From: Runella rosea
Lineage (GTDB): Bacteria > Bacteroidota > Bacteroidia > Cytophagales > Spirosomataceae
Assembly (NCBI RefSeq): GCF_003325355.1
Contig: NZ_CP030850.1
Coordinates: 4,457,501-4,521,500 of the forward strand
DNA: 64,000 nucleotides
Direction of reading: 5' to 3'
Shown here: positions 10,368-57,020 of the stretch, piece after piece
Layout: every line of letters starts with the position of its first letter
Position numbering within the stretch: position 1 is the first letter of the stretch
The notes under the pieces: generated by a model
What the model was told of the DNA's origin: nothing
The model's input: only the letters and a program-made list of their open reading frames with translations
The model's database searches: none
Program-made: the position numbers and the translations under genes

Positions 10368-10384
10368 TTCAAATGATGTACCAG
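10368..10384 (-). promoter_or_regulatory. Predicted sigma-54 (-24/-12) promoter for the P4-P0 operon
   Basis: On the minus strand the 17-mer is CTGGTACATCATTTGAA: the -24 GG, and TTG at exactly the -12 position. The expected transcript start is about 20-25 bp upstream of the P4 ATG. The -24 core is TGGTA rather than TGGCA, making this the weakest of the seven elements by sequence. However, the nearest inverted repeat is centred 63 bp upstream of the GG, exactly as in the stronger cases. Confidence 0.6.
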
Positions 10385-10432
10385 AAGAATAAGTGATTGA
10401 TAAACAAATATTTGTGTTTTTTATTCCCCAAA

Positions 10433-10478
10433 AAAATGTCCGCAAACGGACAGATTTAGCTTCGTTTGCGGACATTTT
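10433..10478. promoter_or_regulatory. Predicted activator-binding site for the P4 promoter, with a 16-bp perfect inverted repeat
   Basis: The proximal site is ATGTCC-GCAAAC-GGACAG at 10436-10453, of the TTGTCC-N6-GGACAA type. The distal site, 22 bp further out, keeps only the right half GGACAT (10470-10475). Superimposed on this, arms 10433-10448 and 10463-10478 form a perfect 16-bp inverted repeat around a 14-nt spacer, using the sequence AATGTCCGCAAACG and its complement. It lies between divergent genes, so it is unlikely to be a terminator. Confidence 0.6.
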
Positions 10479-10591
10479 GTACTAATATTATTGGAGCGCC
10501 GTATAAAACAATTGATGGTGCGTTGCATTCTATAGATTGTCCGATAAAGTTTTAAGGTACGCCCGTAAAAATGGTCTCTCTGTCGATTAAG

Positions 10592-10623
10592 TTTGAGGTT
10601 TTCCCTAATTCATTCTAATCTTG
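10592..10623 (+). promoter_or_regulatory. Possible Bacteroidota housekeeping promoter for the LytS kinase gene
   Basis: TTTG at 10592-10595 and TAATCTTG at 10616-10623 are separated by 20 bp, with one mismatch to the -7 consensus TAnnTTTG. Transcription would start within about 10-15 nt of the ATG at 10641. Confidence 0.35.
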
Positions 10624-10640
10624 TAGCTTAAATTAATATC

Positions 10641-11696
10641 ATGGAATTAGGAAAATCAATCAGTAGTTTAACCGTTTTGGTGCACATCATGGTGTGGCTA
10701 CTGCTTGGATTTATTGTCCTTTTTTATCCACCACTTACTTGGGATATGACAGTCCCTACATCCTTCTGGATCAAGCAGATACTGAATTTTTTTATGTTGG
10801 CGGGGATGTTTTATTTCAACGCACTTTACATGGTCCCTGCGTTTTTAGTCAATGAAAAAAAAACGGTGTTTATTGTATGGTTTGTGGGGATCATCTTTTG
10901 TTTTTTGGTATTGGCCCGAATCATAGAAATTAATCTTCATGTAAATGAACAGATGGCGGCCTTAAAAGGCAGTAAAAGCATTAAGAGTAAATATACACTC
11001 GATGTTCATCTGTTTATGGTTGCTATTTTGGTGATGGTTATCAGTACCAGTTTTGCGGCTGCTCAACGTTGGCAATCGGAAGTGAAAAAGCATGAAATGA
11101 TTGAAAAACAGCACATTGCTTCTGAGTTGGCGTTGTTAAAAGCGCAGATAAATCCCCACTTTTTTTTCAATACCCTCAACAATATTTATGCCCTGACCTA
11201 TTCGGATATTCCAGTGTCGAGAGAGGCTATTCTGAAACTTTCCCGCATGATGCGCTATTTATTGTACGAAACCCCGTTGGAGAGTGCCCTGTTAAGTCAG
11301 GAGATTTCTTTCATGAATGACTATATTGAACTGATGAAATTGCGCCTTCATGCCTACACAACCTTGGAAGTTCAAGAATTTAAGTCAGACCATGAATATT
11401 CGGTAGCGCCAATGCTCTTGCTGCCATTTATTGAAAATGCCTTCAAACACGGAACCAGTTCGCTGAACAAAACTGCAATTTTGATTGCGCTTAACGCCCA
11501 AAATGGCCTCCTTACCCTAAGGGTGAAGAATCAAATACATCCCAATAAAGACGCGGCTGGGGGTATTAACGGCGGTATTGGGTTGATTAATACGAAAAGA
11601 AGGCTTGATTTGCTTTATCCTGGGCGACATTCGCTTATTATAAATGAAGACATTGAGAACAAAATGTATCAGGTTGAGTTAAAAATAGAATTGTAG
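10641..11696 (+). CDS. LytS/YehU-type sensor histidine kinase
   Basis: A 351-residue membrane kinase. Four hydrophobic helices occupy roughly residues 10-150, with no sizeable periplasmic domain. A His_kinase-type module follows: the phospho-acceptor His in the motif INPHFFFNTLNN (about 175), the N-box PFIENAFKHG (about 265-275) and the G-box GGIGLINTKRRLDLLYP (about 310-325). It phosphorylates the LytTR regulator encoded 28 bp downstream, with which it should be co-transcribed. It stands divergent from the P4 permease operon across a 307-bp regulatory region. In Bacteroidota such pairs often sit beside transporters, but nothing here proves that it controls P4. The signal is unknown. Confidence 0.9.
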   Translation: MELGKSISSLTVLVHIMVWLLLGFIVLFYPPLTWDMTVPTSFWIKQILNFFMLAGMFYFNALYMVPAFLVNEKKTVFIVWFVGIIFCFLVLARIIEINLHVNEQMAALKGSKSIKSKYTLDVHLFMVAILVMVISTSFAAAQRWQSEVKKHEMIEKQHIASELALLKAQINPHFFFNTLNNIYALTYSDIPVSREAILKLSRMMRYLLYETPLESALLSQEISFMNDYIELMKLRLHAYTTLEVQEFKSDHEYSVAPMLLLPFIENAFKHGTSSLNKTAILIALNAQNGLLTLRVKNQIHPNKDAAGGINGGIGLINTKRRLDLLYPGRHSLIINEDIENKMYQVELKIEL

Positions 11697-11724
11697 ACAC
11701 CACCATTCCCCTCAAAAAAAAGCC

Positions 11725-12432
11725 ATGAAATTGAATTGTATTACTGTAGATGACGAACCGCCCGCGCTCGGACTGCTCAATACTTTTGTGGAGCAAACTC
11801 CTTTTTTGAACTTAATGGGCCAGTATGCCAACGGGGTAGAAGCACTACAAGCTATTCATAGTCAGTCAATTCACCTTGTGTTTTTGGATATTCAGATGCC
11901 AGATCTAAACGGAATGGAGCTTGCCCGGATTATCAGTCAAACAAACTCGTTGGTGCAGACCCGCATTGTATTCACCACGGCCTATAATCAGTTCGCGGTA
12001 GAAGGCTACAAAGTGGATGCGTTGGATTATCTGATGAAACCATTCAGTTACGAAGAGTTTTTAAGAGCCGCCACCAAGGGAAAAAACCATTTTGAGTTGG
12101 CTGAAAATAATCTTCAAGAAAACTGCATGTTTGTGAAATCTGATTACAAGCTGATTCGGGTAGATTTTGATTCTATTTTATACATCGAATCGTTCAAGGA
12201 TTACGTCAAGATTCATCTTACTCCGCCTGCTGCCCCGATCATTACGCTGAGCCGCCTGAAAGCCATCGAAGACAAGCTACCTCCCTCAAGGTTTCTCCGA
12301 ATACACCGCTCATTTATTGTCGCTATTCATAAAGTAGATTCAATCAGCAGAAATGCCGTTTCTATTGGAAAAACAACGCTTTCCGTGGGCGATTTGTACA
12401 AGGATGCTTTTAAGGAATTAATGGGCGTATAG
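11725..12432 (+). CDS. LytTR-family response regulator
   Basis: A 235-residue regulator. The N-terminal receiver domain (1-120) has the acidic pocket in TVDDEPPALG, the phospho-Asp in LVFLDIQMPD (about residue 55) and a lysine in DYLMKPFS. A LytTR DNA-binding domain follows (about 130-233) with the typical FVKSDYKLIRVDFDSILYIE and RIHRSFIVA stretches. It is the partner of the kinase ending 28 bp upstream. LytTR proteins bind direct repeats upstream of target genes. No such repeat pair could be assigned with confidence, so its targets, possibly including the adjacent P4 operon or the downstream lipoprotein, are open. Confidence 0.92.
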   Translation: MKLNCITVDDEPPALGLLNTFVEQTPFLNLMGQYANGVEALQAIHSQSIHLVFLDIQMPDLNGMELARIISQTNSLVQTRIVFTTAYNQFAVEGYKVDALDYLMKPFSYEEFLRAATKGKNHFELAENNLQENCMFVKSDYKLIRVDFDSILYIESFKDYVKIHLTPPAAPIITLSRLKAIEDKLPPSRFLRIHRSFIVAIHKVDSISRNAVSIGKTTLSVGDLYKDAFKELMGV

Positions 12433-20992: not shown

Positions 20993-22042
20993 TTATACCA
21001 GTGGTAGGGTAACGCGAAATTCGCGCCCGTCATCCTCAATGATGGGCGCGGGTTGGCCCAACATGCGGTACTTGGTAAGGATGTTACTTAGTCCAACGCC
21101 GTTGCTCAACACCCGCGTAGATTTACGCTGTATGTTATTGCTGACCACAAGCCAGTTTGATTCGTCAAGATATAAATTGATGTTTAGCGGCTGTTCGGGC
21201 AATATGATGTTGTGCTTAACGGCGTTCTCAATCAGTAGTTGCAGCGTCAAGGGGGGAAGTTGCCGCTCTTCACCGTTGGATAGAATATTTGCTGTTAATA
21301 TTAGCGAGTCACCGTGGCGAGTTTTGAGCAAGTGATAGTAAGAGTTAAGAAAGTCCAGTTCTGCCGACAGTGGCACCAATGTTGCGTCGTTGCAACGGAG
21401 TAGATAGCGATACACCGAACTCAGTTCTTCACTAAATGTTTCGGCTTTCTGCGGATCTTCGCCGATTAGCGCGGTTAGTGAATTAAGGCTGTTGAACAAA
21501 AAGTGTGGATTAACTTGCTGGCGCAGCGCATCTAATTCAGTTTGCATCTTTGCCTTTTTGAGGTCCTCGGCATCTGTCAGGGCTAATCGATACAGTTTCA
21601 GATAGTAAATGACCTCGTAGACGCCGCCGACAATAAAGGCAAACGAAATGGCCATGGCGATATGGGTCAGATACACGCGGTGAGTTGGGTCTGCAACCAG
21701 GCCTGTTGGGTCAATTTGGCTGAGTCCCCAAGTTTCTATAGGCTGTATCAAAGAGGTTAGCAACGCATAACCGATAAACGTAAGTAGAACGCGCCGACCA
21801 GTATTATCAATCTGAAAATAGTTGGCTCGTGCTTGGAATACCCACCAACGCAATAACTCCCAACTTAAGCCTGTCGATATCAGCCCCCAACCAAAGGTGA
21901 GCCATACCAATGACCAATTAAATCCGTACTCACGTATATAGAAGAATACAAACGGTAAAACAGCCACCGGAACACCGATGATCCGAAACCATTTGTCGTT
22001 GGGTTTAGCACGTTGAGAATCGTCGGTAGTTATTGTTTGCAC
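20993..22042 (-). CDS. Orphan LytS/YehU-type sensor histidine kinase (GTG start)
   Basis: A 349-residue protein. The start is GTG at 22042; there is no in-frame ATG before the first membrane helix, so GTG is the best choice. Four membrane helices lie at about 25-160, then a short coiled coil (DAEDLKKAKMQTELDALRQQ). The phospho-acceptor His is in VNPHFLFNSLNSL, the N-box is LLIENAVKHN and the G-box is GVGLSNILTKYRML. Unlike the kinase at 10641, no LytTR response regulator is adjacent: upstream is a methyltransferase and downstream a convergent cupin gene. It may signal to the LytTR regulator at 11725 or to one outside the window. Confidence 0.88.
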   Translation of the reverse strand: MQTITTDDSQRAKPNDKWFRIIGVPVAVLPFVFFYIREYGFNWSLVWLTFGWGLISTGLSWELLRWWVFQARANYFQIDNTGRRVLLTFIGYALLTSLIQPIETWGLSQIDPTGLVADPTHRVYLTHIAMAISFAFIVGGVYEVIYYLKLYRLALTDAEDLKKAKMQTELDALRQQVNPHFLFNSLNSLTALIGEDPQKAETFSEELSSVYRYLLRCNDATLVPLSAELDFLNSYYHLLKTRHGDSLILTANILSNGEERQLPPLTLQLLIENAVKHNIILPEQPLNINLYLDESNWLVVSNNIQRKSTRVLSNGVGLSNILTKYRMLGQPAPIIEDDGREFRVTLPLV

Positions 22043-25504: not shown

Positions 25505-25523
25505 GATACAATTATGTTGGCAA

Positions 25524-25550
25524 GGGGGCGGACGCAAGGCCCGCCCCTAC
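25524..25550. repeat. REP-like palindrome (inverse orientation)
   Basis: GGGGGCGGACGCAAGGCCCG followed by CCCCTAC is the reverse-orientation copy of the element at 29644-29670. It fills most of the 49-bp gap between P6 and P5. Confidence 0.6.
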
Positions 25551-25553
25551 AAT

Positions 25554-28172: not shown

Positions 28173-28186
28173 GCGTCAAGGTTAGT

Positions 28187-44083: not shown

Positions 44084-44418
44084 AGTCCAGTAAGCCTAAG
44101 TTTGGTGGGAGGCATCATTTGCCAGAGTTCGTGACGGAGTTGTTGAATTTCCTGCAAAGCACGATTTCCTAAAGCGGTTGCTTGAAATATCCGCTTGCGT
44201 CGTCCGCCGCGTTCATTGGTGGCCCCGCCGAGTTGAGAACTCACAAACCCTTTTTCTTCCAGACGAATAAGTGTATTGTGCACGGTGCCAAAAGTCACAA
44301 TCCGACCTGTATGCTCCTCCAACGCTTGACTGACTGTAACGCCGTAGGCTTCGCCGTCGAGGATGGCCACCATGAGTAAAACCACTTCTTCAAATTCACC
44401 TAAATAAGTGCGACGCAT
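44080..44418 (-). CDS. PadR2: PadR-family transcriptional regulator
   Basis: A 112-residue winged-helix protein paralogous to PadR1. It shares the start RRTYLGEFEEVVLL, the recognition segment FGTVHNTLIRLEEKGFVSSQ and the wing NERGGRRKRIFQAT. It heads a two-gene operon with P11, overlapping it by 4 bp. Its promoter (44449-44465) has the same 14-base core as that of PadR1. As in the Acidobacteria PadR/orphan-permease pairs, the regulator probably acts on its own operon; the ligand is unknown. Confidence 0.9.
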   Translation of the reverse strand: MRRTYLGEFEEVVLLMVAILDGEAYGVTVSQALEEHTGRIVTFGTVHNTLIRLEEKGFVSSQLGGATNERGGRRKRIFQATALGNRALQEIQQLRHELWQMMPPTKLRLTGL

Positions 44419-44448: not shown

Positions 44449-44465
44449 TACAAATAGTTTGCCAA
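44449..44465 (-). promoter_or_regulatory. Predicted sigma-54 promoter for PadR2-P11
   Basis: The minus-strand 17-mer is TTGGCAAACTATTTGTA: TTGGCA at -24 and TTG at -12, 31 bp upstream of the ATG. The nearest activator site is centred 63 bp from the -24 GG. Confidence 0.78.
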
Positions 44466-44516: not shown

Positions 44517-44555
44517 CTGTCCGTTTACGGACAAACATTGTCCCGCAGTGGACAG
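44517..44555. promoter_or_regulatory. Paired activator sites upstream of PadR2-P11
   Basis: CTGTCC-GTTTAC-GGACAA (44517-44534) and TTGTCC-CGCAGT-GGACAG (44538-44555) have centres 21 bp apart, at 63 and 84 bp from the -24 GG. Both have intact half-sites, making this the cleanest pair in the window. Confidence 0.8.
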
Positions 44556-44674: not shown

Positions 44675-47056
44675 TTATTCCGTTTTTAAACTCTTCACTG
44701 GATTCATCAACGCCGCTTTAATTGCCTGAAAACTGACGGTCAGGAGTGTAATAAGCAATGCTCCTACTCCCGCTACTGCAAAAATCCATCCTGAAATCTC
44801 AGTACGATAGGTGTATTTTTGTAACCATTCTTGTAGAAAATAATAGGCAATGGGTGCGGAAATAACGCAGGAAATGATGACCAAAATGACAAAATCTTTG
44901 GAGAGCATTTGCCACAGATTCGTCACCGATGCCCCCAATACTTTGCGAATACCGATTTCTTTGGTACGCTGTTCGGCAATGAAAGAGGCCAGTCCAAATA
45001 TTCCCAAACAACTGATAAAAATGGCGAGAATGGCAAAGAAGGTAGCCAGCTTACCGATTCGTTCTTCGTTGTCAAATTTTTTGGCATATTCCTCATCCAC
45101 AAACTGATATTCAAACGGTTGGGAAGGGTTAAATTTTTTGAAAACCGTTTCTACCTCGCTCAATGCTTTGCCAGCACTTGTCAAAGGATTGATTTTTACG
45201 ATGATAACCCCTCCCGGATACGGAGCCAAATGGTAAATGGAAGGTTTTACCTGTTGAAAAGGAGATTGTACAATCATATCTTTCACCACGCCGATTACTT
45301 TGTTAGAAGTTCCGTACCACTTAATGGTTTCGCCTACTGGATTTTTCAAACCCATAAATTTTACGGCTGCTTCGTTCAAAATCAACCCAGAGGAGTCGGT
45401 AGAAAATTCTTTCGAGAAATCACGCCCTTCTTTGAACGACCAGCCGATGGTTTTGCCATAGTCAAACGAAATAGCTATTGTCTGAAAATCGACGGATAGA
45501 TTAGGGTCTTTGTCTTTCCATTCAATCGTGCTGGTGCTTGAATAATTCTCCGTTGGGGGACTTCCAGCCTCGGCCATTTCTGTAATGGCCCCTGATTTTG
45601 TCAAATCGCGTTTTACGGCGTCAAAATGGGTATGAATTTCGGAAGTGTACATGGGCAGTACCACTAAACCATTGCTGTTATAACCCATCGGGCGATTTTG
45701 GGCAAATTTTACCTGACGAAATACAATGATGGTCCCGATAATCAACGTCACCGAAACCGTAAATTGTATCGTTACTAGCACCTTACGTGGTAAAGCTGCC
45801 CAACGGCCTGCGCGGAAGGTGCCTTTTAAGATTTTTAGGGGCTGAAAGGAGGATAAATAGAAAGCTGGATAGCTGCCTGCCACCAGTCCACAAAGCAAAC
45901 TGAAGCCTAAGCCTGTCGCCCAAAACAAAGGATTGCTCCACGGAATAGACATGGTTTTGTCGGCCACGCTGTTGAAAAAAGGTAAAAGGAGTTGCGCTAA
46001 AAGCAAAGCAAACCCAAAGGAGCAAAACACCATTAAAAGGGATTCAAAAAAGAACTGGTAGACAATTTGGGCGCGAACCGAGCCTACTGCTTTGCGGATG
46101 CCTACTTCTTTGGCGCGTTTTTCGGAGCGTGCCGTGCTCAAATTCATGAAATTGATGCAGGCTAACAACAGTACAAATAAGCCGCTGATGCCAAACAACC
46201 ACACATACTGAATTTTTCCGCCCGTGTTGAAGCCATTCTTAAAGTCAGAGTACAGGTGCCATTGGCTCATGGGGTGCAGGAAAACTTCTGGTTTTTTCTT
46301 GGCCAGTTCCTTATTGACTTTGTTCAGCTTGGCATCTTTGATTTTGTGCGAAACCGTAGCGGCGTCAGCGTTTGGAATGAGTTGAGCATAAATATGAAAC
46401 GCATTGGGTCGCCATGGGTCGGCCATTGTTCTAACCCACTCATTGTTGTAGTAATACAGCTGCCACGGGGCTATAAACGTTAGGTCGTGAAATTCAGAAT
46501 TATGAGGCAAATCTTCATACACTCCCGTTACTTTTACATCCGCTTGGTTATCTATTCTCATGATTTTATCCAAGGGGTCGGCCTCGCCGAAAAATGCCTT
46601 GGCGACCGATTCAGACAGCAGGATAGCGTTGGGATTTTGGAGGCCGTTTCTTGTCCCTTTTAGCATTTTTAGCGTCAGCATTTCGGTGATTTGAGGTTCG
46701 AAATACGCACCTTTCTTACTGAATTTCTTCTCGCCGTAAGACAAAATACTGTATGCATCTTGCGAAACAGTCACGTGCTTAAAGTCGCTCCCGTAACTTT
46801 TGCGGAGTTCTTCGGCTAAAGGAAGCGGTGTATTGGGCCACGTTTGCACTTCACCGTTGTTGGTCACGTGTTGCATGACCCGCACAATGCGGTCGTAGTT
46901 TTGGTGATATTTGTTGAATGATAATTCATCCCACATCCATAGGCCGATAAGAATTGCCACGGCCATTCCAGCTGATAATCCTATAATATTGATGAAAGAA
47001 TACACCTTGTTTTTGACAAGGTTTCGGATTGCGATTTTCAGGTAGTTTCGAAACAT
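44675..47056 (-). CDS. P12: MacB/FtsX-type ABC transporter permease
   Basis: A 793-residue permease, last gene of the P14-P13-P12 unit. TM1 is NIIGLSAGMAVAILIGLWMW, then DELSFNKYHQNYDRIVRVMQ, placing it in the P5/P8/P12/P13 subgroup. This subgroup also shares an EKRAKEVGIRKAVGSVR coupling loop and the LHPMSQWHLYSDFKNG type of segment at the end of the first periplasmic domain. The second coupling motif is KEIGIRKVLGAS, preceded by GLASFIAEQRT. It ends MNPVKSLKTE. A strong terminator follows at 44470-44503. It lies 57 bp after P13. Confidence 0.93.
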   Translation of the reverse strand: MFRNYLKIAIRNLVKNKVYSFINIIGLSAGMAVAILIGLWMWDELSFNKYHQNYDRIVRVMQHVTNNGEVQTWPNTPLPLAEELRKSYGSDFKHVTVSQDAYSILSYGEKKFSKKGAYFEPQITEMLTLKMLKGTRNGLQNPNAILLSESVAKAFFGEADPLDKIMRIDNQADVKVTGVYEDLPHNSEFHDLTFIAPWQLYYYNNEWVRTMADPWRPNAFHIYAQLIPNADAATVSHKIKDAKLNKVNKELAKKKPEVFLHPMSQWHLYSDFKNGFNTGGKIQYVWLFGISGLFVLLLACINFMNLSTARSEKRAKEVGIRKAVGSVRAQIVYQFFFESLLMVFCSFGFALLLAQLLLPFFNSVADKTMSIPWSNPLFWATGLGFSLLCGLVAGSYPAFYLSSFQPLKILKGTFRAGRWAALPRKVLVTIQFTVSVTLIIGTIIVFRQVKFAQNRPMGYNSNGLVVLPMYTSEIHTHFDAVKRDLTKSGAITEMAEAGSPPTENYSSTSTIEWKDKDPNLSVDFQTIAISFDYGKTIGWSFKEGRDFSKEFSTDSSGLILNEAAVKFMGLKNPVGETIKWYGTSNKVIGVVKDMIVQSPFQQVKPSIYHLAPYPGGVIIVKINPLTSAGKALSEVETVFKKFNPSQPFEYQFVDEEYAKKFDNEERIGKLATFFAILAIFISCLGIFGLASFIAEQRTKEIGIRKVLGASVTNLWQMLSKDFVILVIISCVISAPIAYYFLQEWLQKYTYRTEISGWIFAVAGVGALLITLLTVSFQAIKAALMNPVKSLKTE

Positions 47057-47113
47057 GGACGTAGGAGTGTTTTATAGAGAATAGAAAAAATGCATTTGTC
47101 TTATTCTCATTTT

Positions 47114-49516
47114 TTATTCCGTTTTTAAACTTTTAACTGGATTCATGAGTGCCGCTTTAATGGATTGATAGCTAACCGTCAACAACGTAATCGCCAACGC
47201 GCCAATGCCGGCCAGCGCAAAAACCCACCAAGAGATTTCGGTATGGTATTTATAGTCTTGTAACCAATCGTTCAAATAATAATAAGCGATGGGCGTAGCG
47301 ATGAAGCAGGAAATGATGACCAAAACCACAAAATCTTTGGAAAGCAATCCCCACAAATTGAATACTGACGCACCCAATACTTTTCGGACGCCGATTTCTT
47401 TGGTTCGTTGTTCGGCGGTAAACGAGGCCAAGCCAAAAAGACCCAAACACGAAATCAGAACGGCCAATACGGCAAAGCCACCCGCCAATTTGCCGATGCG
47501 CTCTTCTGAAACAAACTTTTTACCAAACTCTTCGTTGACAAATTTGTACTCAAAAGGAGCCGACGGAATGAGTTTTCGGAAGGTGGCCTCAATCTTGGCG
47601 ATGGATTCGGAGGCACTTTTGTTGGGGTTCAATTTGAGCGTCATCCAGTTCACATTTTCGTAGCCCATAAAGTAGATTGTCTGCTTTACTGGCTCGTAGG
47701 GAGATTCCATGAGCATATCTTTGATGACGCCCACAATGGTAAACTTTTCGGCCTCTTTTCCGCTACCCCACTGCACAACCGTCCCAACTGGATTTTTAAG
47801 TCCCATAAATTTGACGGCGGCTTCATTGATAACAATAGCCGCCGTATCGGTCGAAAATTGCCTTGAAAAATCCCGTCCGTCTTTGAATTGCCAGCCTACT
47901 GTTTTTCCAAAATCGTGCGTGACCCAAATCGTGGCAAACTCCGCTTGCAGGCTGGGATCTTTGCCTTTCCAGTCAAACCCACCATTGTTGGACCAAACGC
48001 CGGTTAATGGACTGGAAGATTCGGTCATTTCAACAATGGCACCCGCGTTTTTAAGCTCAGTTCGCAGCACCTCATATTTTCCGTAAAAATCAGGCGACAT
48101 CATCTGCATCATGATTAGCCCGTCGTTATCATAGCCCATGGGACGGTTTTTGGTGTGTTGAATCTGGCGGTATACGATGATGGTACCAGTAATCAATGTG
48201 ACAGAAACCGTAAACTGAACCACTACCAATACTTTGCGCGGCACGGCCGCAAAACGGCCCGCTTTGAAGGTGCCTTTTAGCACTCGGATAGGTTGGAAAG
48301 AAGATAAGTATAACGCAGGATAGCTTCCTGCTAGCAAACCCGTGATAAAAATGAAGCCAAGGCTGATGAACCAAAAGGTGGGTTCTGTCCAAGGGAAAAC
48401 CATTTTCTTGTCGCTGACTTCGTTAAACCAAGGCAACAGGGCCAATATGAACGCCACGGCTCCGATAAACGCAAATGTCACTACCAAAAAGGATTCACTA
48501 AAAAACTGATTGATGAGTTGGGCGCGAACCGAACCCACGGCCTTTCTGATACCGACTTCTTTGGCGCGTTTTTCGGAGCGGGCCGTGCTCAAATTCATAA
48601 AATTTATACACGCGAGCAGCAATACAAATGCTCCAACGATGGCAAAAAGCCAAACATATTGGATAAAACCGCCCGTTTTGATGCCTTCGTCAAAGTTGGA
48701 GCGCAGGTGCCAATCGCGCATGGGTTGAAGAAAAATTTCGGCTTTAAATTTCTTCTCCTCGGCATCCACTTTGTCCCATTTGACATTTTTGATTTTGGCG
48801 CTCAATTTGTCCATGTCGGCATTGTCCGCGATTTGGGCATAAAGCTGAAACGAATTATTGCCCCACTGATTTTCGTCGAGCGCTCGCTGCACCCATTTTT
48901 GGGAAGAAACGTACAGTTTCCAGGGCGCGATAAAGTTCAGCTCCCGAAACTGCGTATTAAATGGTAAGTCCTCATAGATTCCTGTCACTTTTACGTCGAG
49001 CTTGTTGTCAATTTTGATAAACTTACCCATCGGGTCGATGCTCCCGAAAAGTGCCTTGGCGGTGGAGGCCGAGAGCAAAACGGAGTTGAGTTCTTTCAAG
49101 CCATCGTAGGTTCCTTTCTGCATTTTCAACGAGAGCATTTTAGGAATATCCACATCCATATAATTGCCCGAACGAGTGATTTTGGCCTCTCCAAATGTTA
49201 AAATTCGGTTGCCTTCCCAAGTGGCCATGGCCAGATGCTTGAAGTCACTGCCGTATTTGGTGCGGAGTTCGGTTACCAAAGGCATCGGAATAGAGCGTTC
49301 GGTTCCTTTATGTCCGTTGAAAGTTTGGTGCTGCATCACCTGTGCCAAATGCTCGTAGTTTTGGTGATATTTGTCGTATGACAATTCATCATAAATCCAC
49401 AAACCGATCAGCATCGCTACGGCCATCCCTACTGCCAAACCGCCGATATTGATAAAAGAATAGACCTTATTTTTAGCAAGGTTTCTAAGAGCAATTTTAA
49501 GGTAGTTACGAATCAT
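47114..49516 (-). CDS. P13: MacB/FtsX-type ABC transporter permease
   Basis: An 800-residue permease in the middle of the P14-P13-P12 unit. TM1 is NIGGLAVGMAVAMLIGLWIY, then DELSYDKYHQNYEHLAQVMQ. It is closest to P5 by eye (shared QVMQHQTF, TAKALFG-like and AVPRKVLVVVQFTVSVTLI segments). The coupling motifs are KEVGIRKAVGS and KEIGVRKVLGAS. It ends MNPVKSLKTE. Unlike P5 it has no prefix domain, and no linker remnant is visible upstream of its ATG. The flanking gaps are 67 and 57 bp without promoter-like elements. Confidence 0.93.
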   Translation of the reverse strand: MIRNYLKIALRNLAKNKVYSFINIGGLAVGMAVAMLIGLWIYDELSYDKYHQNYEHLAQVMQHQTFNGHKGTERSIPMPLVTELRTKYGSDFKHLAMATWEGNRILTFGEAKITRSGNYMDVDIPKMLSLKMQKGTYDGLKELNSVLLSASTAKALFGSIDPMGKFIKIDNKLDVKVTGIYEDLPFNTQFRELNFIAPWKLYVSSQKWVQRALDENQWGNNSFQLYAQIADNADMDKLSAKIKNVKWDKVDAEEKKFKAEIFLQPMRDWHLRSNFDEGIKTGGFIQYVWLFAIVGAFVLLLACINFMNLSTARSEKRAKEVGIRKAVGSVRAQLINQFFSESFLVVTFAFIGAVAFILALLPWFNEVSDKKMVFPWTEPTFWFISLGFIFITGLLAGSYPALYLSSFQPIRVLKGTFKAGRFAAVPRKVLVVVQFTVSVTLITGTIIVYRQIQHTKNRPMGYDNDGLIMMQMMSPDFYGKYEVLRTELKNAGAIVEMTESSSPLTGVWSNNGGFDWKGKDPSLQAEFATIWVTHDFGKTVGWQFKDGRDFSRQFSTDTAAIVINEAAVKFMGLKNPVGTVVQWGSGKEAEKFTIVGVIKDMLMESPYEPVKQTIYFMGYENVNWMTLKLNPNKSASESIAKIEATFRKLIPSAPFEYKFVNEEFGKKFVSEERIGKLAGGFAVLAVLISCLGLFGLASFTAEQRTKEIGVRKVLGASVFNLWGLLSKDFVVLVIISCFIATPIAYYYLNDWLQDYKYHTEISWWVFALAGIGALAITLLTVSYQSIKAALMNPVKSLKTE

Positions 49517-49583
49517 AGCTTTTCATAATTTGAAGGTTGAGGCTATTTTTTTTTCTAAATCCTATCCTCCCAGATCTTTGAAT

Positions 49584-52007
49584 TTACTCCGTTTTCAAAC
49601 TCTTTACTGGATTCATTAATGCCGCTTTTATCGCCTGATAACTAACTGTTAATAAGGATATTGTCAAGGCTGAAGTGCCTGATACGACAAAAATCCACAA
49701 CGAAATATCGGTTCTGAATGCAAAGTCTTTCAGCCACGTACTCATGGCATAGTATGCCAAGGGCGAAGCTATCACAAAGGCAAGGCAAACCAATTTTAGA
49801 AAGTCTTTTGAAAGCAACCGAACAATGCTCCAAATACTCGCTCCCAGCACTTTTCTTACGCCAATTTCTTTGGTACGTTGCTCGGCTGTGAAAGTGGCTA
49901 AACCAAATAAGCCCAAACAAGCTATCAGAATCGCTAAAACCGCAAAACTGATAAAGACTTTTCCGATGCGTTGTTCGGTACGATACATATTGTCGAAGGC
50001 ATCATCTAAAAATTGATAATTGAGGGGTGTTCTGCCCGCTCTTAACTTCCATCTTTCTTCGATTTTGGCAATGCTCTCTTTAAAATCATTGGATTGCACC
50101 CGTACTGAAATCATGCCGTAAGGATTTTTGGCAAGGCACATTGAAAGGCTTGCCACATTCTCTCGGAGAGATGCATAATTGAAGTTTTTGACCACTCCAA
50201 TAATTGTATATGGAATCAAGTCTTTTAGATTGCTGCCATAAGCGTATAATTTTTGACCGATTGGGTTTTTATAGCCTGTTTGTTTTGCTGTGGTTTCGTT
50301 GATGATGATAGCCGACGAATCCGTAGACATCGTTTTATCAAAGTCGCGTCCAGCTACAAACTGCATTTTAAGGGTTTCGGTGTAGTCATAGCCTACTTCC
50401 CAGAATTGCATCGAGATACCATTATCGGCACCGAGCTGGCCTTCTGTCCAAAAAACGGTGTTGTTTCGGTAAGATGGTGTAGGCAAAAAAGCACTTATGG
50501 TCGCCGATTTTATGCCTGAAATTTGTAATAATTCGTTTTTAAACGATTCTAAGCCTTTCTCTAATAGATTTGTATCGTTGATAACGATGACTTGTTCACG
50601 ATTGAAACCAATGTTTTGTTTCTGAATAAAATCTAACTGACGATAAATCACAATCGTAGAAATGATGAGAAATATTGAGGCAAAAAACTGAAAAACAACC
50701 AAGCTACTTCGTAAATAACCACCTTTGTTAGTGGCACTTAGTTTGCCTTTTAGGACGCTAATTGGTTTGAATGAAGACAAAAACAGAGCAGGATAAATAC
50801 CAGCTAACAAGCCTATAAAAACAGCAAAACTAAACAATATGGATAGTAAAAGTGGTTTTTTGATGAATGATAGGCTTAGATTTTTGGCTGATAAATCATT
50901 GAAAAATGGTAAAATCAAAGTAGCAATGCCAAGCCCCAATATGAATGCTATTAAGCTCATCAGGATGGATTCTGACAAAAACTGATTCATCAGCATCGCA
51001 CGTACTGACCCCATGACTTTACGTACGCCCACCTCTTTTGCCCGATTGACCGAACGTGCCGTGCTAAGATTCATAAAATTGACACATGCTATCAACAAAA
51101 TAAAAAGAGCAATCGCCGAAAAAATGTAAACATACTGAATACTACTATTTGGTGAAAGTTCAAAGAATTTGTTAGAATGGAGATGAATATCTGTCAGTGG
51201 TGTCAATCCCAAAGCTACTCGATTGCCCGCTTTTTCTAATTCTTCTATGCTCTTGATACCCATTACACTCTTAAATTGGGGCATCATGTATTTCTTGATA
51301 ACTTTATCAAACTGCGATTGTAATTGCTCAGGTTTTGTACCTTCTTTGAATACTAAATAGGTAAAAAAATTATTGTTCAACCAGTTATTTGCCCTGCTAT
51401 CTGCCGAACTTTCCATCGAAAGAAACATATTTCTGCCCCTGAAATGCGAGTTTTCGGGGATATTTTTCATTACACCAGTTACTTTATAGGCATTTTCGTC
51501 AATGGTCATTGTCATGCCCAAAACCTGTGTTTTTCCAAAATATTTTTGAGCAGTTTGTTCGTCTAAAACTATCGTAAATGGTTCTTGCAACGCCGTTTTT
51601 GCGTCGCCTTCAATCAATGGAATATCAAAAACTTCAAAAACTGAATTATCAACAAACATAGACATAGACTCACGGATATTCTGATTTCCTTTTTTGACCA
51701 AAATATCAATGGGCCTGAATCGGGTAAAGGTTTCGATGAATGGATAGTCGTTTTTTAAAGCAGCCCCCATACCATCCGAAACAGTGGCAAATGACCTATC
51801 TTGCCCACCAAACTTGACATCAAAATCAATCCGATAAATTCTGTCGGCTTTTTGATGATAGCGGTCGTAGCTGATTTCGTCTAAGACATAAAGCGTAATC
51901 AACAAACAAGTGGCCATACCAATAGCTAGTCCACCGATGTTAATGGCCGAATAAATCTTATTTCGTTGTAGATTTCTGAAAGCGATTTTTAGATAATTGC
52001 GTATCAC
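49584..52007 (-). CDS. P14: MacB/FtsX-type ABC transporter permease (GTG start)
   Basis: An 807-residue permease, first gene of the P14-P13-P12 unit. It starts at GTG (52007): V/MIRNYLKIAFRNLQRNK aligns with the leader of its paralogues and no ATG is available nearby. The bases before the GTG (cacgatcgggcggtat on the plus strand) resemble those before P8 (catggtcgggctgtat), which encode a prefix-domain linker. P14 may therefore descend from a prefix-type gene whose internal start codon became the only one. TM1 is NIGGLAIGMATCLLITLYVL then DEISYDRYHQKADRIYRID. The coupling motifs are KEVGVRKVMGS and KEIGVRKVLGAS. Codon use looks more AT-rich than in neighbouring permeases, hinting at different ancestry. 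Confidence 0.92.
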   Translation of the reverse strand: MIRNYLKIAFRNLQRNKIYSAINIGGLAIGMATCLLITLYVLDEISYDRYHQKADRIYRIDFDVKFGGQDRSFATVSDGMGAALKNDYPFIETFTRFRPIDILVKKGNQNIRESMSMFVDNSVFEVFDIPLIEGDAKTALQEPFTIVLDEQTAQKYFGKTQVLGMTMTIDENAYKVTGVMKNIPENSHFRGRNMFLSMESSADSRANNWLNNNFFTYLVFKEGTKPEQLQSQFDKVIKKYMMPQFKSVMGIKSIEELEKAGNRVALGLTPLTDIHLHSNKFFELSPNSSIQYVYIFSAIALFILLIACVNFMNLSTARSVNRAKEVGVRKVMGSVRAMLMNQFLSESILMSLIAFILGLGIATLILPFFNDLSAKNLSLSFIKKPLLLSILFSFAVFIGLLAGIYPALFLSSFKPISVLKGKLSATNKGGYLRSSLVVFQFFASIFLIISTIVIYRQLDFIQKQNIGFNREQVIVINDTNLLEKGLESFKNELLQISGIKSATISAFLPTPSYRNNTVFWTEGQLGADNGISMQFWEVGYDYTETLKMQFVAGRDFDKTMSTDSSAIIINETTAKQTGYKNPIGQKLYAYGSNLKDLIPYTIIGVVKNFNYASLRENVASLSMCLAKNPYGMISVRVQSNDFKESIAKIEERWKLRAGRTPLNYQFLDDAFDNMYRTEQRIGKVFISFAVLAILIACLGLFGLATFTAEQRTKEIGVRKVLGASIWSIVRLLSKDFLKLVCLAFVIASPLAYYAMSTWLKDFAFRTDISLWIFVVSGTSALTISLLTVSYQAIKAALMNPVKSLKTE

Positions 52008-52053: not shown

Positions 52054-52070
52054 GACAAATTGTTTGCCAG
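52054..52070 (-). promoter_or_regulatory. Predicted sigma-54 promoter for P14-P13-P12
   Basis: The minus-strand 17-mer is CTGGCAAACAATTTGTC: TGGCA at -24 and TTG at -12. It lies 47 bp upstream of the GTG. The nearest activator site is centred 52 bp from the -24 GG, one helical turn closer than the usual 63. Confidence 0.75.
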
Positions 52071-52110: not shown

Positions 52111-52149
52111 CTGTCCGAAATCGTACACTTATTGTACGAAACTGAACAG
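52111..52149. promoter_or_regulatory. Paired activator sites upstream of P14
   Basis: CTGTCC-GAAATC-GTACAC (52111-52128) and TTGTAC-GAAACT-GAACAG (52132-52149) have centres 21 bp apart. They lie 52 and 73 bp from the -24 GG. Confidence 0.7.
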
Positions 52150-52169: not shown

Positions 52170-54527
52170 TTATTCCGTTTTTAGTGATTTTACGGGGTTC
52201 ATCAACGACGCCCGGATGGCTTGATAACTGACGGTCAGCAAGGCAATCGCTACCGCCGAAAGCGCCGCAATGGCAAAATACCACCATTCTATGTCGATGC
52301 GATAAGCGTATTTTTCGAGCCAATTTTTGAGGAAATACCACGCCACTGGAAATGCAATGAGCGTGGCGATCAAGACCAATTTGATAAAATCCAGCGATAA
52401 CATTCCTACCAGATTGGATACGCTTGCGCCCAGCACTTTACGCACGCCTATTTCTTTGGTGCGTTGCTCCGCCGTAAACGACGCCAGTCCAAATAGCCCA
52501 AGACACGAAATAAAAATGGCCAAAAACGCAAAGTAATTGGATAGCTTATTGACCACATTCTCGCTTTTGTACTGATTGGCGTATTCTTGGTCGGCAAAAA
52601 AGTATTTGAATGGAAAATTAGGGTTAAACTTCTTGAACACTTTTTCGGTGCTGGCAACAGCATCGGGAGTTTTGCCGCCTTCGGCGCGGATGATGACGAC
52701 GCCCCAATTCTCCGTTTTGGGCTGTAAACGCAAAATCAACGGCTCAATGGCAGAATGAAGCGTGTTGTAATGAAAATCTTTCATCAGCCCGACGATGGTT
52801 CCCTTGCGGTCCCACATGGTCATTTCTTTGCCTACAGGGTCTTTATAGCCCATTTTCTTGGCGCTGGCTTCGTTGATGATGTAGTTGGTGGTGTCGGTTC
52901 CGTATTGATCGCTGAAATCCCGCCCGCCAATCAGTTGAATGCCCATCGTTTTGATGTAGTCGTACGAAATGGCGTTGTTGGCGAAAAGCAATAACTGGGT
53001 TGTGTCTTTCCCAGGCCATTTTACGCCTTGTGTAGAAGAGCCTACTTCTAGCGGGTCTGATTGGGAGCAGGTGACAGATTTGATGCCGGGCTGATGTTGA
53101 AGTTCTTGTTTGAACGAGGCAAAATTCTTCTGCAAATCCCCCTCCAATGGCATATAAAGCAGGTTTTCGCGGTCATAACCAGCATTTTTCGTTCGTAAAT
53201 AATTGATTTGTTCGTGAACGATAATCATGCCTAAAATGAGCGTAATTGACAAGGCAAACTGAAAAACTACCAGCCCTTTGCGAAAATAGGTGGCGCTTGG
53301 CTTAAATTTCAGGGAGCCTTTCAACACCACAACGGGGTTGAGCGAAGACATGAACAACGCGGGATAGCTCCCCGCTACCAAGCCCGTCACCAACGTTAGA
53401 CTCACCAAAACCACCAGAAAACTCGGGTCGGTAAAGTTGAGTGAAAGCTCTTTTTCGGTCAGAAGGTTAAAAGTAGGCAAGAGCAAAAAGACCAGCAGAA
53501 TAGAAAAGAGGAGCGCACAAAATGCAATCAAAATGGCTTCCCCCATAAATTGCCCAATCAGAATGCCTTTGACGGCGCCAATCACCTTGCGCACGCCCAC
53601 TTCCTTGGCGCGTTTGACGGAGCGGGCCGTGGCCAAATTCATAAAATTGATGCACGCAATCAATAAAATCACTATGGCAACGATGGAAAAAATACGTACA
53701 TAATCAATCCGCCCGCCGTTTTGTTTGCCCGAATCCCAATTAGAATACAGATACGATTCTTGGTAGGATTGCAGAAATATTTCGACGTTGCTGTCTTTGT
53801 TTTTGGTCTTGATGTAGCCCTTAATTTTGGCGTTTACTTTGTCTAATGATGCGTTTTTGGCCAACATCACGTAACAGCGTGGCCCGTTATTGCCCCATTC
53901 TTTGGCCCATGGGTTGTTTTTGAGCCAGCGGTCGAAGCTCATCAAGAAGTCAAATTTTAGCGATGAGTTTTTAGGGATGTCTTTCAAAATTCCCGTAACC
54001 ATCACGTCTTCTTTGCCGTCAATTCGGATGGATTTGCCCAGCGGATTTTGATTAGGAAAATACTTCTGGGCGAGTTTTTTTGATATAACCACTCCATCGG
54101 GACGTTTTAGGGCGGTTCGGGCATCGCCCTGCTCCAGTTTGAAACTGAACATCGTCAGAAAATCCCCTTGTACGTAGCGGCCCTTTTCTTTATCGAAAGC
54201 AGTGCCTACCGTAAAAAGCGGCTGCTCTTCCCACAGCATTTGGCTGGCCTTTTCGATTTCTGGAATGTCTTTTACGATGTTTTCGGCCAGAAGCCCCGGC
54301 GTTGAAGGGTAGGTTTCGATTTTGCCCGAATAATACTGGTTTTCCATTACCCGATAAAGACGCGTGCCGTTTTGATGAAAGGCGTCCATGGCTGTTTCGT
54401 CTTGTACCCATAGCATAATCATCAGGCTGCAGGCCATGCCGAGTGCCAACCCCATGATGTTGATAAAACTATAGACTTTGTTCTTCCACAAATTGCGGAA
54501 GGCGATAGTGAGGTAATTGCTTAACAT
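52170..54527 (-). CDS. P15: MacB/FtsX-type ABC transporter permease
   Basis: The frame opens at 54590, but the ATG at 54527 (MLSNYLTIAFRNLWKNKVYS) fits the family leader, giving 785 residues. It is the only permease directly linked to the ATPase gene (86 bp) and the adaptor, so MacA-ATPase-P15 is the one complete transporter in the window. TM1 is NIMGLALGMACSLMIMLWVQ, then DETAMDAFHQNGTRLYRVME, the signature shared with P9. The coupling motifs are KEVGVRKVIGA and KEIGVRKVLGAS. It ends MNPVKSLKTE. By analogy with MacAB/LolCDE it would extract or expel an amphiphile or peptide from the periplasmic face, using ATP; the substrate is unknown. Confidence 0.93.
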   Translation of the reverse strand: MLSNYLTIAFRNLWKNKVYSFINIMGLALGMACSLMIMLWVQDETAMDAFHQNGTRLYRVMENQYYSGKIETYPSTPGLLAENIVKDIPEIEKASQMLWEEQPLFTVGTAFDKEKGRYVQGDFLTMFSFKLEQGDARTALKRPDGVVISKKLAQKYFPNQNPLGKSIRIDGKEDVMVTGILKDIPKNSSLKFDFLMSFDRWLKNNPWAKEWGNNGPRCYVMLAKNASLDKVNAKIKGYIKTKNKDSNVEIFLQSYQESYLYSNWDSGKQNGGRIDYVRIFSIVAIVILLIACINFMNLATARSVKRAKEVGVRKVIGAVKGILIGQFMGEAILIAFCALLFSILLVFLLLPTFNLLTEKELSLNFTDPSFLVVLVSLTLVTGLVAGSYPALFMSSLNPVVVLKGSLKFKPSATYFRKGLVVFQFALSITLILGMIIVHEQINYLRTKNAGYDRENLLYMPLEGDLQKNFASFKQELQHQPGIKSVTCSQSDPLEVGSSTQGVKWPGKDTTQLLLFANNAISYDYIKTMGIQLIGGRDFSDQYGTDTTNYIINEASAKKMGYKDPVGKEMTMWDRKGTIVGLMKDFHYNTLHSAIEPLILRLQPKTENWGVVIIRAEGGKTPDAVASTEKVFKKFNPNFPFKYFFADQEYANQYKSENVVNKLSNYFAFLAIFISCLGLFGLASFTAEQRTKEIGVRKVLGASVSNLVGMLSLDFIKLVLIATLIAFPVAWYFLKNWLEKYAYRIDIEWWYFAIAALSAVAIALLTVSYQAIRASLMNPVKSLKTE

Positions 54528-54613
54528 GGCTGTATGGGTTTTGAGCATAGCGGAAAAGGCAGAGGGCCATTGCCCAATGCCTTCACGCACTACTTATATG
54601 GGTGAATATGTGT

Positions 54614-55291
54614 TTATACGCGCATTTTTTCAGTCACCACTTTACCGTCAAAAAGATTGACGATTCGGTGGGCAAAACCTGCGTCATACGGCGAGTGAGT
54701 CACCATGATGATGCTCGTGCCTTCGTCGTTGAGTTGGGAGAGCAATTTCATTACTTCTTCGCCGTTGGCGGAGTCTAAGTTTCCTGTGGGCTCATCCGCA
54801 AGGATTAATTTGGGCTTGGCCACCACCGCGCGGGCAATGGCGGTACGTTGCTGCTGTCCCCCCGAGAGTTGTTGCGGAAAGTGATTGCGACGGTGCATGA
54901 TGTTCATGCGGGTCAATACAGTTTCGACCATTTCTTTGCGTTGGTCAGCGGGTACTTTGAGGTAAAGCAGCGGAAGTTCGACGTTTTCATACACGGTCAG
55001 CTCGTCGATGAGGTTAAAGCTCTGGAACACAAACCCAATGTTCCCTTTGCGTAGCTGCGCCCGTTGACGTTCCGACAGTTTTGCTACCTCGGTCCCGTGG
55101 AAGTCATAGCTGCCTTCGCTGGGGTTGTCTAAGAGTCCTAAGATGTTGAGCAATGTAGATTTGCCACAACCCGAAGGGCCCATGATGGCGACAAATTCAC
55201 CGTCTTTTACTTCCAAATCAATTCCGTTCAAGGCTGTTGTTTCCACTTCTTCGGTGGTGAAGATTTTCTGGAGGTTAGCTGTTTTTATCAT
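54614..55291 (-). CDS. ABC transporter ATP-binding protein (LolD/MacB-NBD type)
   Basis: A 225-residue cytosolic ATPase. Walker A is GPSGCGKST (about 37-45), the Q-loop [19 protein letters not shown], the signature [14 protein letters not shown] (about 140), Walker [14 protein letters not shown] (about 160), and the H-loop MVTHSPYDA. All catalytic residues are present. Sequence and size fit the group that serves MacB, LolCE and FtsX permeases. It is the only ABC ATPase gene seen in the 64-kb window, while 16 permease genes lack one. It is the second gene of the MacA-ATPase-P15 operon. It may energise P15 alone or, as inference, be shared by the array. Confidence 0.95.
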
Positions 55292-55429: not shown

Positions 55430-56728
55430 TTATTTCAATTCAAGCACTTCTTTGTCGCCAAAGTTTGCGTAGCTGCTGGTGATTACTTTTTCACCGGTTT
55501 GTAGCCCTTCCAGTACTTCATAATATTCAGGATTTTTGCGTCCTAGCGTGATGTTACGCTTGATGGCGCGTTTGCCGCTATTGTCCAGCACGTACACCCA
55601 GTTGCCGCCTGTATCGGAGAAAAACCCACCTACTGGCAAGAGTACCGCTTTTTCGGCCTTGCCTAATTCTAGGCGAATCGGTGTAGATTGTCCGCGTTTA
55701 ATGCCTTCGGGCGTACCTTTCGGAAAACTCATATCTACTTCAAAACGTCCGTTTTTTACTTCGGGATAGATGCGCGTAATGGTCAGTGGGTTGTCTTTTC
55801 CATTGAATTCAAAACTTCCGCCCAACCCGACAAAAATTCGCGATACATAGTGCTCATCAATCGCGACGCGCATTTTAAAACCGTTGAGGTCGTCAATCTG
55901 CCCGATGTTTTGGCCTTGGCTGATGTTAGAACCTACTTCTACGTCTATTGAGGAAAGCAATCCACCCACGGGCGCTTTCACTACGAGGTTATCGAGTGTT
56001 TGGCGCCACAGGTCTACGTTGCGTTGGGTCCGCAAAAGCGTTCCTTCCAATTGGCCAATCTGCATTTTGGCGTTTTCTTCCTGATAGATTTGCGATTCAG
56101 TTTCGATTTCTTTTTGTTTTACCAACAATTCGTAATCCCGTTTTGAACGCAGAAAGTCAGATTCAGGAATCACCTTGTCTTTGAATAATTTTTGATTACG
56201 TTCGTAAATATCTTTGGCTTGGTCAATTTTAAATTCCAGTTCGTTTAAAGTCCGACGGATATTAAAACGCGCCACTTTCAATTGTTGACGGGTATTTTGA
56301 AGGTCATTTACCAGTCGACTGGCCTCCGTTTCTGATTGTAGGAAGTTAAGTTTGAGGTTTTGGTTTTCTAGTTTCAAGAGCACTTGGCCTTGGGTCACCA
56401 TGCTGCCACCTTCCACGATTTTTTCCCGAACATAACCGCCCACGATGGCGTCCAGACGAATGATTTTGAGGGGTTGGACTACGCCAGTTACGACAATAAA
56501 CTCATCAAAAGAGCCCGTTGAAACACTGGATACCGTGAGTTTTTCGGCTTCTACATTGAGTTTGGAGCGTTTATCGGAGAAAAATAATTGATACACAATA
56601 AAGGCAATCAAAGCACTGCTTCCCGCAAAAATGGCAATGCGTTGGGTGTTCCAAAATTTCTTTTTACGTACGCGGTCCATGGTGCCCTGAGGGTTGTTTT
56701 GGCCGATGATCGGATTCTTAACTTCCAT
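55430..56728 (-). CDS. MacA/HlyD-family periplasmic adaptor subunit
   Basis: A 432-residue adaptor anchored in the inner membrane by one helix (about 27-49, AIFAGSSALIAFIVYQLFF). The first half of the lipoyl-like domain is IVGGYVREKIVEGGSMVTQG (about 92-111). An alpha-helical hairpin follows (about 118-225, with LNFLQSETEASRLVNDLQNT and DIYERNQKLFKDKVIPESDF), and then the second lipoyl half VKAPVGGLLSSIDVEVGSNI. The beta-barrel and membrane-proximal domains complete it (PVGGFFSDTGGNWVYVLDNS). Such proteins bridge the permease to an outer-membrane channel of the TolC type. No TolC-like gene is in the window. It is the first gene of the MacA-ATPase-P15 operon, with its own sigma-54 element at 56845-56861 and a 12-bp hairpin in the leader. 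Confidence 0.93.
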   Translation of the reverse strand: MEVKNPIIGQNNPQGTMDRVRKKKFWNTQRIAIFAGSSALIAFIVYQLFFSDKRSKLNVEAEKLTVSSVSTGSFDEFIVVTGVVQPLKIIRLDAIVGGYVREKIVEGGSMVTQGQVLLKLENQNLKLNFLQSETEASRLVNDLQNTRQQLKVARFNIRRTLNELEFKIDQAKDIYERNQKLFKDKVIPESDFLRSKRDYELLVKQKEIETESQIYQEENAKMQIGQLEGTLLRTQRNVDLWRQTLDNLVVKAPVGGLLSSIDVEVGSNISQGQNIGQIDDLNGFKMRVAIDEHYVSRIFVGLGGSFEFNGKDNPLTITRIYPEVKNGRFEVDMSFPKGTPEGIKRGQSTPIRLELGKAEKAVLLPVGGFFSDTGGNWVYVLDNSGKRAIKRNITLGRKNPEYYEVLEGLQTGEKVITSSYANFGDKEVLELK

Positions 56729-56768
56729 TGTTACTATGCTGATTGATGAATGAGTACTTTGTTAAAAT

Positions 56769-56805
56769 GCAGTAAGGAGTTGATTTCTTTTCGACTCCTT
56801 ACTGC
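56769..56805 (-). promoter_or_regulatory. Hairpin in the 5' leader of the adaptor operon
   Basis: The 12-bp perfect arms GCAGTAAGGAGT and ACTCCTTACTGC surround a 13-nt loop. In the adaptor transcript it lies between the predicted start (about 56833) and the ATG at 56728, followed by ATTTTAAC. It could be an attenuator, or protect the mRNA. On the plus strand it is followed by TTCATTTTTT, so it could also stop opposing transcription. Confidence 0.6.
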
Positions 56806-56844
56806 TTCATTTTTTAATGGCTGTATGTGTCTGTTTAGTATTCT

Positions 56845-56861
56845 GCCAATACCCGTGCCGG
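56845..56861 (-). promoter_or_regulatory. Predicted sigma-54 promoter for MacA-ATPase-P15
   Basis: The minus-strand 17-mer is CCGGCACGGGTATTGGC: GGCACG at -24 and TTGG at -12. The activator sites are centred 64 and 85 bp from the -24 GG. The -24 T is replaced by C. Confidence 0.68.
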
Positions 56862-56913
56862 AAACATAAGTTATTGGTTATGAATGAATTGGTATTGTCT
56901 ATGAATTTTAAAA

Positions 56914-56952
56914 TTGTCCGAAAACGGACATGGGTTGTACGCCATTGGACAA
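56914..56952. promoter_or_regulatory. Shared paired activator sites for two divergent sigma-54 promoters
   Basis: TTGTCC-GAAAAC-GGACAT (56914-56931) and TTGTAC-GCCATT-GGACAA (56935-56952) have centres 21 bp apart. They are 64 and 85 bp from the adaptor -24 GG on one side, and 63 and 84 bp from the activator-gene -24 GG on the other. The pair is therefore placed almost symmetrically. Confidence 0.8.
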
Positions 56953-57003
56953 GAATAAAAAGTGCACTTTATCTTAATGGTTGATAATGAGGTATTTTGT
57001 ATT

Positions 57004-57020
57004 TTGGCACTCTTATTGGG
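57004..57020 (+). promoter_or_regulatory. Predicted sigma-54 promoter for the activator-kinase operon
   Basis: TTGGCACTCTTATTGGG has a perfect -24 TTGGCAC and a -12 TTGG. It lies 73 bp upstream of the ATG at 57094 and implies positive autoregulation. Confidence 0.75.

Follow-up and report, generated by a model that had tools for sequence, protein, structure and literature searches.

Some Bacteroidota and Acidobacteria possess many arrays of duplicated orphan permeases, to which, to our knowledge, no function has been assigned. Here, we describe how such an array is probably controlled in Runella rosea, on a stretch of 64,000 nt that we call the window (GCF_003325355.1, NZ_CP030850.1, positions 4457501-4521500 of the forward strand, numbered from 1). 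It carries rows of MacB/FtsX-type permease genes, the genes of an NtrC-type regulator and of a sensor kinase, and paired inverted repeats (dyads) upstream of sigma-54 promoter elements of the -24/-12 type. Coordinates marked C1 are those of the contig in the 7.16-Mb host genome, and plain coordinates are those of the window.

The closest described relatives of this locus fall into two groups, exporters and sigma-54 systems. Among the former, the acidobacterial duplicated orphan permeases (ADOP, TIGR03434) are likewise duplicated MacB/FtsX permeases of about 800 aa that come in many copies, some of them with PadR regulators; 28 and 33 permeases of two Dyadobacter genomes have been named ADOP (PMC11573002). 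The darobactin exporter DarBCD (NF038008, NF038010, NF038007) provides the best NCBIfam matches of the ATPase (DarD) and the adaptor (DarC) encoded here, and the permeases also match DarB. On the regulatory side, QseF/GlrR at glmY combines a receiver-AAA+-helix-turn-helix activator, upstream dyads, and a -24/-12 promoter as our locus does, and the consensus given for QseF, TGTCN10GACA (PMC8745638), has half-sites similar to those of the array dyads. For the permeases themselves, a 2025 paper predicts sigma-54 promoters before COG0577 genes in Bacteroidia, Opitutia, and gamma-Proteobacteria and calls this the first such link (PMC12316311), which ties sigma-54 to the same permease class as in our array. 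Sigma-54 start sites have been mapped in Flavobacterium psychrophilum (PMC9723704), where none of the genes selected for Table 2A is a permease of this kind; those listed there concern chaperones, the envelope, and motility.

The findings below point to a dedicated local sigma-54 regulon in which, very probably, one two-component activator controls the permease array and its shared pump parts via paired dyads.

Results

Paired dyads cluster around the permease array

The dyad is a 16-bp inverted repeat with the consensus TGTCCG-N4-CGGACA, and pairs of dyads have their centres 20-21 bp apart. An initial annotation of the window had described clear tandem pairs with centres 20 or 21 bp apart at six of seven promoters. 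The pairing and its spacing hold, but the window contains six pairs in all because the one at 56.9 kb serves both the 56.85-kb and the 57.0-kb promoter, which are divergent. The degenerate second copy that had been assigned to promoter P4 is actually the distal copy of the 10.4-kb site, while the pair at 44.4 kb, number four whichever end one counts from, is perfect. Half-site statistics were compiled from 19 dyads (38 half-sites), leaving out this degenerate copy and an exact single dyad that lies outside the array at C1:4546453. Half-sites of the TGTTCG type are a minority among them (5/38).

Searching the whole genome for the pair with up to two mismatches returned nine matches, seven with a 5-bp gap and two with a 4-bp gap, and all nine fall within 96 kb (C1 4436919-4533274). 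The 10.4-kb site is missing from this set because its distal copy is degenerate. With exactly three mismatches, 10 and 13 further matches (5- and 4-bp gap) appear, scattered over the genome, and the reversed pattern, our control for motif counts, gave four and five matches genome-wide at up to three mismatches. A genome-wide scan had been suggested in the initial annotation as a check, and its outcome here is that the pairs with up to two mismatches do not occur at random positions but cluster around the array.

Single dyads carry no such signal, with 35 occurrences at up to two mismatches in the window vs 40 expected. An exact dyad at C1:2156138 (locus L011) has no recognizable permease or pump gene beside it, as judged by inspection of the open reading frames (ORFs). 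A differently spaced pattern, TGTNCG-N5-CGNACA, was rejected with one match and one control match.

Dyads stand at constant distances from -24/-12 elements

All seven -24/-12 elements named in the initial annotation are present within one or two bases of where it had placed them, with an exact TGGCA-N6-TTG in four and one mismatch in the other three (those at 10.4, 41.2, and 56.8 kb). By itself, such an element is weak evidence, since the pattern with up to one mismatch has 111 matches in the window vs 81 +/- 9 expected; the signal resides in pairing and position. The distances that had been claimed between the proximal dyad and the GG of the element were likewise all recovered (Table 1). Including flanking DNA beyond both window ends (186 kb read in total), we count 10 sites serving 11 promoters, and every site has a -24/-12-like element toward the gene, with scores of 9.0 to 12.5 out of a maximum of 13. 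The element lies 63-64 bp away in eight of the 11 promoters; in the remaining three, the distance is 65, 76, and 52 bp.

For elements located 62-65 bp away from the 11 dyads, a range picked after the spacings were known, the mean score is 9.6 vs 4.9 +/- 0.5 at random intergenic anchors (maximum of 3000 draws, 6.5). A wider range of 45-80 bp gives 10.8 vs 7.4 +/- 0.4 (largest, 8.7). Together with the clustering of the pairs, these scores far above random anchors bear out the earlier view that the recurrence of pairing and spacing is hard to explain by chance. The same regularity bears on whether the dyads could be hairpins or terminators instead of protein sites. At the 10.4-kb promoter (10437-10473), the perfect dyad is followed on the minus strand by a run of seven T and has a terminator-like look; nevertheless, the dyads lie upstream of promoters, are paired at 20-21 bp, and keep a constant distance to the -24/-12 elements, so, although no terminator scan was made, the chance that they are terminators is next to negligible.

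The array, its pump genes, and its probable regulator

The dyads belong to a system that extends past both ends of the window. Across C1 4430106-4535406, it comprises 24 permease genes, an HlyD-type adaptor, two ATPases, a TolC-type channel, the regulator, and the kinase; the 24 duplicated permeases occupy C1 4430106-4512090, all on the minus strand, and 22 of them are plainly behind a site as judged by gene spacing. The initial annotation had counted 16 permeases, which corresponds within the window to 15 complete genes plus the 5' part of another one (1-243). Beyond the right-hand window end, a pair at C1:4533238 with its -24/-12 element at 63 bp lies upstream of the second ATPase (4533386) and the outer-membrane efflux gene of TolC type (4534036). 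Among ORFs of at least 100 aa in the 186 kb, just two ATPases resemble the array type (C1:4512114 and 4533386).

A search with MacB_PCD found two further long open frames elsewhere in the genome, one on contig C6 and one at 6452753. The latter lies beside an ATPase gene and, on inspection, is apparently of a different type. The former is an orphan duplicated permease (L146 2935-5358; contig of 46.8 kb) without any dyad at up to two mismatches in the 7 kb around it; it adjoins an ORF that resembles a recombinase on inspection.

The presumed activator has the receiver, sigma-54 activation, and Fis-type helix-turn-helix domains of an enhancer-binding protein (Table 1), and its L1 loop reads GAFTDA instead of GAFTGA, a variant that is counted as activity-retaining (PMC4641369). 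In the kinase, simple hydropathy alone places hydrophobic segments at residues 8-26 and 31-49, separated by a loop of ca. four residues. Intramembrane-sensing histidine kinases lack an outer sensor domain, and their two membrane helices are joined by a very short outer loop. Because of its two hydrophobic helices and short loop, the kinase may thus sense within the membrane. The host genome encodes two sigma-54 factors (PF00309), at C1:6271075 and C1:3753888, the second of which adjoins another enhancer-binding protein gene (L010). Two other regulatory loci lie inside the array, a PF06580-type kinase accompanied by a response regulator of LytTR type (10641-12432) and a lone PF06580-type kinase (20993-22042).

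Table 1. Features of the predicted regulon in the window, in order of position. Distances are from the proximal dyad to the GG of the element.
Feature	Position	Strand	Basis or remark
Five permease genes	1-10372	-	last one crosses window end at base 1 (C1 4455317-4457743)
-24/-12 element (TGGTA variant), five-permease operon	10369-10383	-	63 bp from dyad
Perfect proximal dyad	10437-10452		pattern match
Degenerate distal dyad	10458-10473		sequence inspection
PadR regulator gene and two permeases	22880-28519	-	profile matches, ORFs
-24/-12 element, PadR and two-permease operon	28548-28562	-	76 bp from dyad
Pair of dyads, centres 20 bp apart	28629-28664		pattern match
Four permease genes	31381-41119	-	ORFs, permease searches
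-24/-12 element, four-permease operon	41155-41169	-	63 bp from dyad
Pair of dyads	41223-41259		pattern match
PadR regulator gene and permease with prefix domain 2	41432-44418	-	PadR; MacB_PCD, FtsX; perm_prefix_2 above cut-off
-24/-12 element, PadR-permease operon	44450-44464	-	63 bp from dyad
Pair of dyads	44518-44554		pattern match
Three permease genes	44675-52007	-	ORFs, permease searches
-24/-12 element, three-permease operon	52055-52069	-	52 bp from dyad
Pair of dyads	52112-52148		pattern match
Duplicated MacB/FtsX permease (ADOP-like)	52170-54590	-	profile matches
ABC ATPase	54614-55291	-	best NCBIfam match DarD, below cut-off
HlyD-type periplasmic adaptor	55430-56728	-	best NCBIfam match DarC, below cut-off
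-24/-12 element, HlyD-ATPase-permease operon	56846-56860	-	64 bp from dyad
Shared pair of dyads	56915-56951		pattern matches; half-sites constant in nine Runella-type sequences
-24/-12 element, regulator-kinase operon	57005-57019	+	63 bp from dyad
NtrC-type response regulator (enhancer-binding protein)	57094-58464	+	Pfam Response_reg, Sigma54_activat (PF00158) 229 bits, HTH_8 (Fis-type helix-turn-helix)
Sensor histidine kinase	58461-59789	+	Pfam PAS_8, HATPase_c; two N-terminal hydrophobic helices

Pair, regulator, and pump genes recur together

We followed the pair through 200 genomes of the host family (own genome included; these are related and not independent) and 395 genomes of the phylum (four of the host family and 391 others). 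In the family, the exact pair occurs in 121 genomes and its reversal in none, while the kinase (E <= 1e-60) occurs in 153. Both are found in 120 genomes, the kinase only in 33, the pair only in one, and neither in 46. All 30 loci that we examined from 30 of the pair-bearing genomes flank system genes, i.e., a permease (13), a PadR-permease unit (5), or the regulator and HlyD (12), and 21 of them have an element scoring at least 10 toward the gene. Across nine Runella-type sequences of the shared pair, the half-sites of both dyads are constant, whereas the dyad centres and the flanking bases differ. Each dyad has 12 invariant columns out of 16, and the two elements have 12/15 and 13/15, compared with 35/116 and 18/74 outside and 20/54 and 32/53 between them.

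In the phylum sample, the pair (gap of 3-6 bp) was found in 19 of 395 genomes and its reversal in none, with all four genomes of the host family and 15 of the 391 others being positive. The corresponding 23 loci comprise 16 from those 15 genomes and seven from the family and the own genome. Of the 16 outside the family, 15 adjoin system genes (one of these, L121, by a 24%-identical HlyD match alone) and L139 does not; an element of at least 10 accompanies 13 of the 15. In nine of these Bacteroidota loci (L126-L133, L137), the pair again lies between the regulator and HlyD genes.

These loci also help to judge whether it is instead PadR repressors, whose genes lie in some of the permease operons, that use the dyads as operators, with the sigma-54 regulator acting elsewhere. 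PadR-family operators are inverted repeats of the TGT/ACA type, which counts in favor of this reading, as do the PadR genes in two operons of the array (28187 and 44080). However, a PadR match lies beside the pair in just 5 of the 30 family loci and in none of the 3-kb loci of the nine outside genomes just mentioned, and the constant distance to the -24/-12 elements suits an enhancer-binding protein, so that we consider PadR operators very unlikely.

Searching with the kinase gave 66 loci, of which 37 also have a regulator match above 150 bits; 33 of these 37 contain at least one match to HlyD, ATPase, or permease and 21 contain all three. The taxa represented include Runella, Rudanella, Spirosoma, Cyclobacteriaceae, Pontibacter, Flavobacteriaceae, Acidobacteria, and Gammaproteobacteria. 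In non-Runella Bacteroidota, the pair was found in 5 of 13 loci vs a permuted mean of 0.08 (maximum 3). In other phyla, it was found in 2 of 16 (L051, L055) vs a permuted mean of 0.2; since this does not exceed the maximum of 2 in 60 permutations, conservation of the pair beyond Bacteroidota is suggestive only. The second of these loci, from Tahibacter soli, has two pairs, one preceding HlyD and the other preceding the ATPase and permease genes, each at 61 bp from a good -24/-12 element. Single-dyad counts were unremarkable by permutation in both groups (25 vs a mean of 21.6; 57 vs a mean of 88.7). A Muribaculaceae regulator of this type (L050 8568-9785) has a partial AAA+ match and no GAFT loop, and its genome keeps a sigma-54 gene.

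The host genome itself contains a paralogous locus (L144 3203-12817; C1:3557500 onward) with HlyD, TolC, ATPase, two short permeases, a regulator, and a kinase. Its regulator (C1:3567329) shares the GAFTDA loop and a similar helix-turn-helix with the one at the array, and a TGTTCG-type dyad stands 63 bp from a -24/-12 element. It is therefore conceivable that this paralog, or both regulators, bind the array dyads and that the array answers a second signal too. Against this stand the single dyad, without a pair, at the paralogous locus, the rarity of the T half-site in the array, and the fact that the local regulator has a pair in its promoter, and we regard such control by the paralog as unlikely.

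Discussion

Control by the local regulator remains our preferred reading of the array. In this mechanism, the kinase would phosphorylate the enhancer-binding protein, which would then bind two adjacent 16-bp dyads two helical turns apart and open the promoter by looping onto RNA polymerase-sigma-54, held at a -24/-12 element that mostly lies 63-64 bp further downstream. This protein would act on its own operon and on those encoding the MacB/FtsX (ADOP-like) permeases of the array, one HlyD, two ABC ATPases, and one TolC-type channel, with these operons themselves being predicted ones. The permeases would share ATPase, adaptor, and channel and so form alternative tripartite exporters, which appears to be the likeliest use because just two such ATPases are encoded near 24 permeases. 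The kinase-regulator pair may answer envelope damage or stress, or peptides. The initial annotation had the local kinase and activator switch on all 16 permeases. As far as the activator is concerned, this is well supported by sequence because its domains fit, its own promoter carries a pair, kinase and pair co-occur, and nine outside genomes have the pair between regulator and HlyD; as for the count, the system is larger, with 24 permeases and an ATPase-TolC operon outside the window.

Several observations weigh against this reading. The leftmost permease (C1:4430106) has no pair directly upstream, with the next ORF 449 bp away, and the permease at C1:4433487 starts ca. 750 bp from its site. 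TGGCAN6TTGC is hardly commoner in the genome than its reversal (103 vs 92), and the element copies at the array are partly imperfect, with TGGTA in 4 of 11 and the weakest one, at C1:4455171, scoring 9.0. In the family, 33 of the 153 kinase-positive genomes lack an exact pair, and the Fisher value for kinase-pair co-occurrence overstates independence, given the relatedness of the genomes and given that one small-genome genus (g13) makes up 33 of the 46 double negatives. As many as 25 of the 30 examined loci come from a single genus (g32), nine of the 30 show no element of at least 10 toward the gene, and two family loci (L122, L125) have an exact pair without any recognized system gene adjacent. 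Outside the family, the exact pair is limited to the 15 of 391 genomes described above. The genes beside the pairs at L122 and L125 (around 1501) are possibly further members of the regulon.

More tentatively, regulator, kinase, operator, and exporter could form one ancient cross-phylum module, with TGTCCG-type pairs ca. 61-63 bp from the promoter driving the HlyD, ATPase, and permease genes of Bacteroidota, Gammaproteobacteria, and perhaps Acidobacteria. Here, this module would have expanded to 24 interchangeable permeases that share ATPase, adaptor, and channel, and its kinase would read the membrane or the transporter and not an outside ligand. We consider this possible but doubtful.

An operator with a fixed layout that is tied to one activator tells which genes belong together and predicts shared pump parts, and it names one regulator whose removal should silence the array. 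Its mode of action is the classical one known from textbooks, while the regulon, the operator, and their extent appear new within the literature that we searched. There, we recognized no paper describing the regulon or its operator, with most subscription papers outside the scope of the search.

Measured against the described systems, the array resembles each of them in part. The permeases stay below the ADOP cut-off of 622 bits with 286, 324, and 274 bits for the three of 24 that were scanned. Likewise, the pump parts reach 280 of 375 bits for DarD, 204 of 450 for DarC, and 130-143 of 700 for DarB, and the darobactin exporter has one permease compared with 24 here. The regulator scores 285 bits with the GlrR profile (cut-off 763), and its best match is TIGR02915 with 375 bits (cut-off 503). 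Unlike the QseF/GlrR sites, the array dyads read TGTC-N8-GACA, are paired at 20-21 bp, and serve exporter permeases instead of a small RNA. Finally, the published statistical link between sigma-54 and COG0577 permeases (PMC12316311), so far as we are aware, comes without an upstream operator, an assigned activator, or an array, and the terms "upstream activ", "UAS", and "inverted repeat" are absent from the main text of that paper; for this link, our analysis proposes both a cognate activator and the upstream operator through which it would act.

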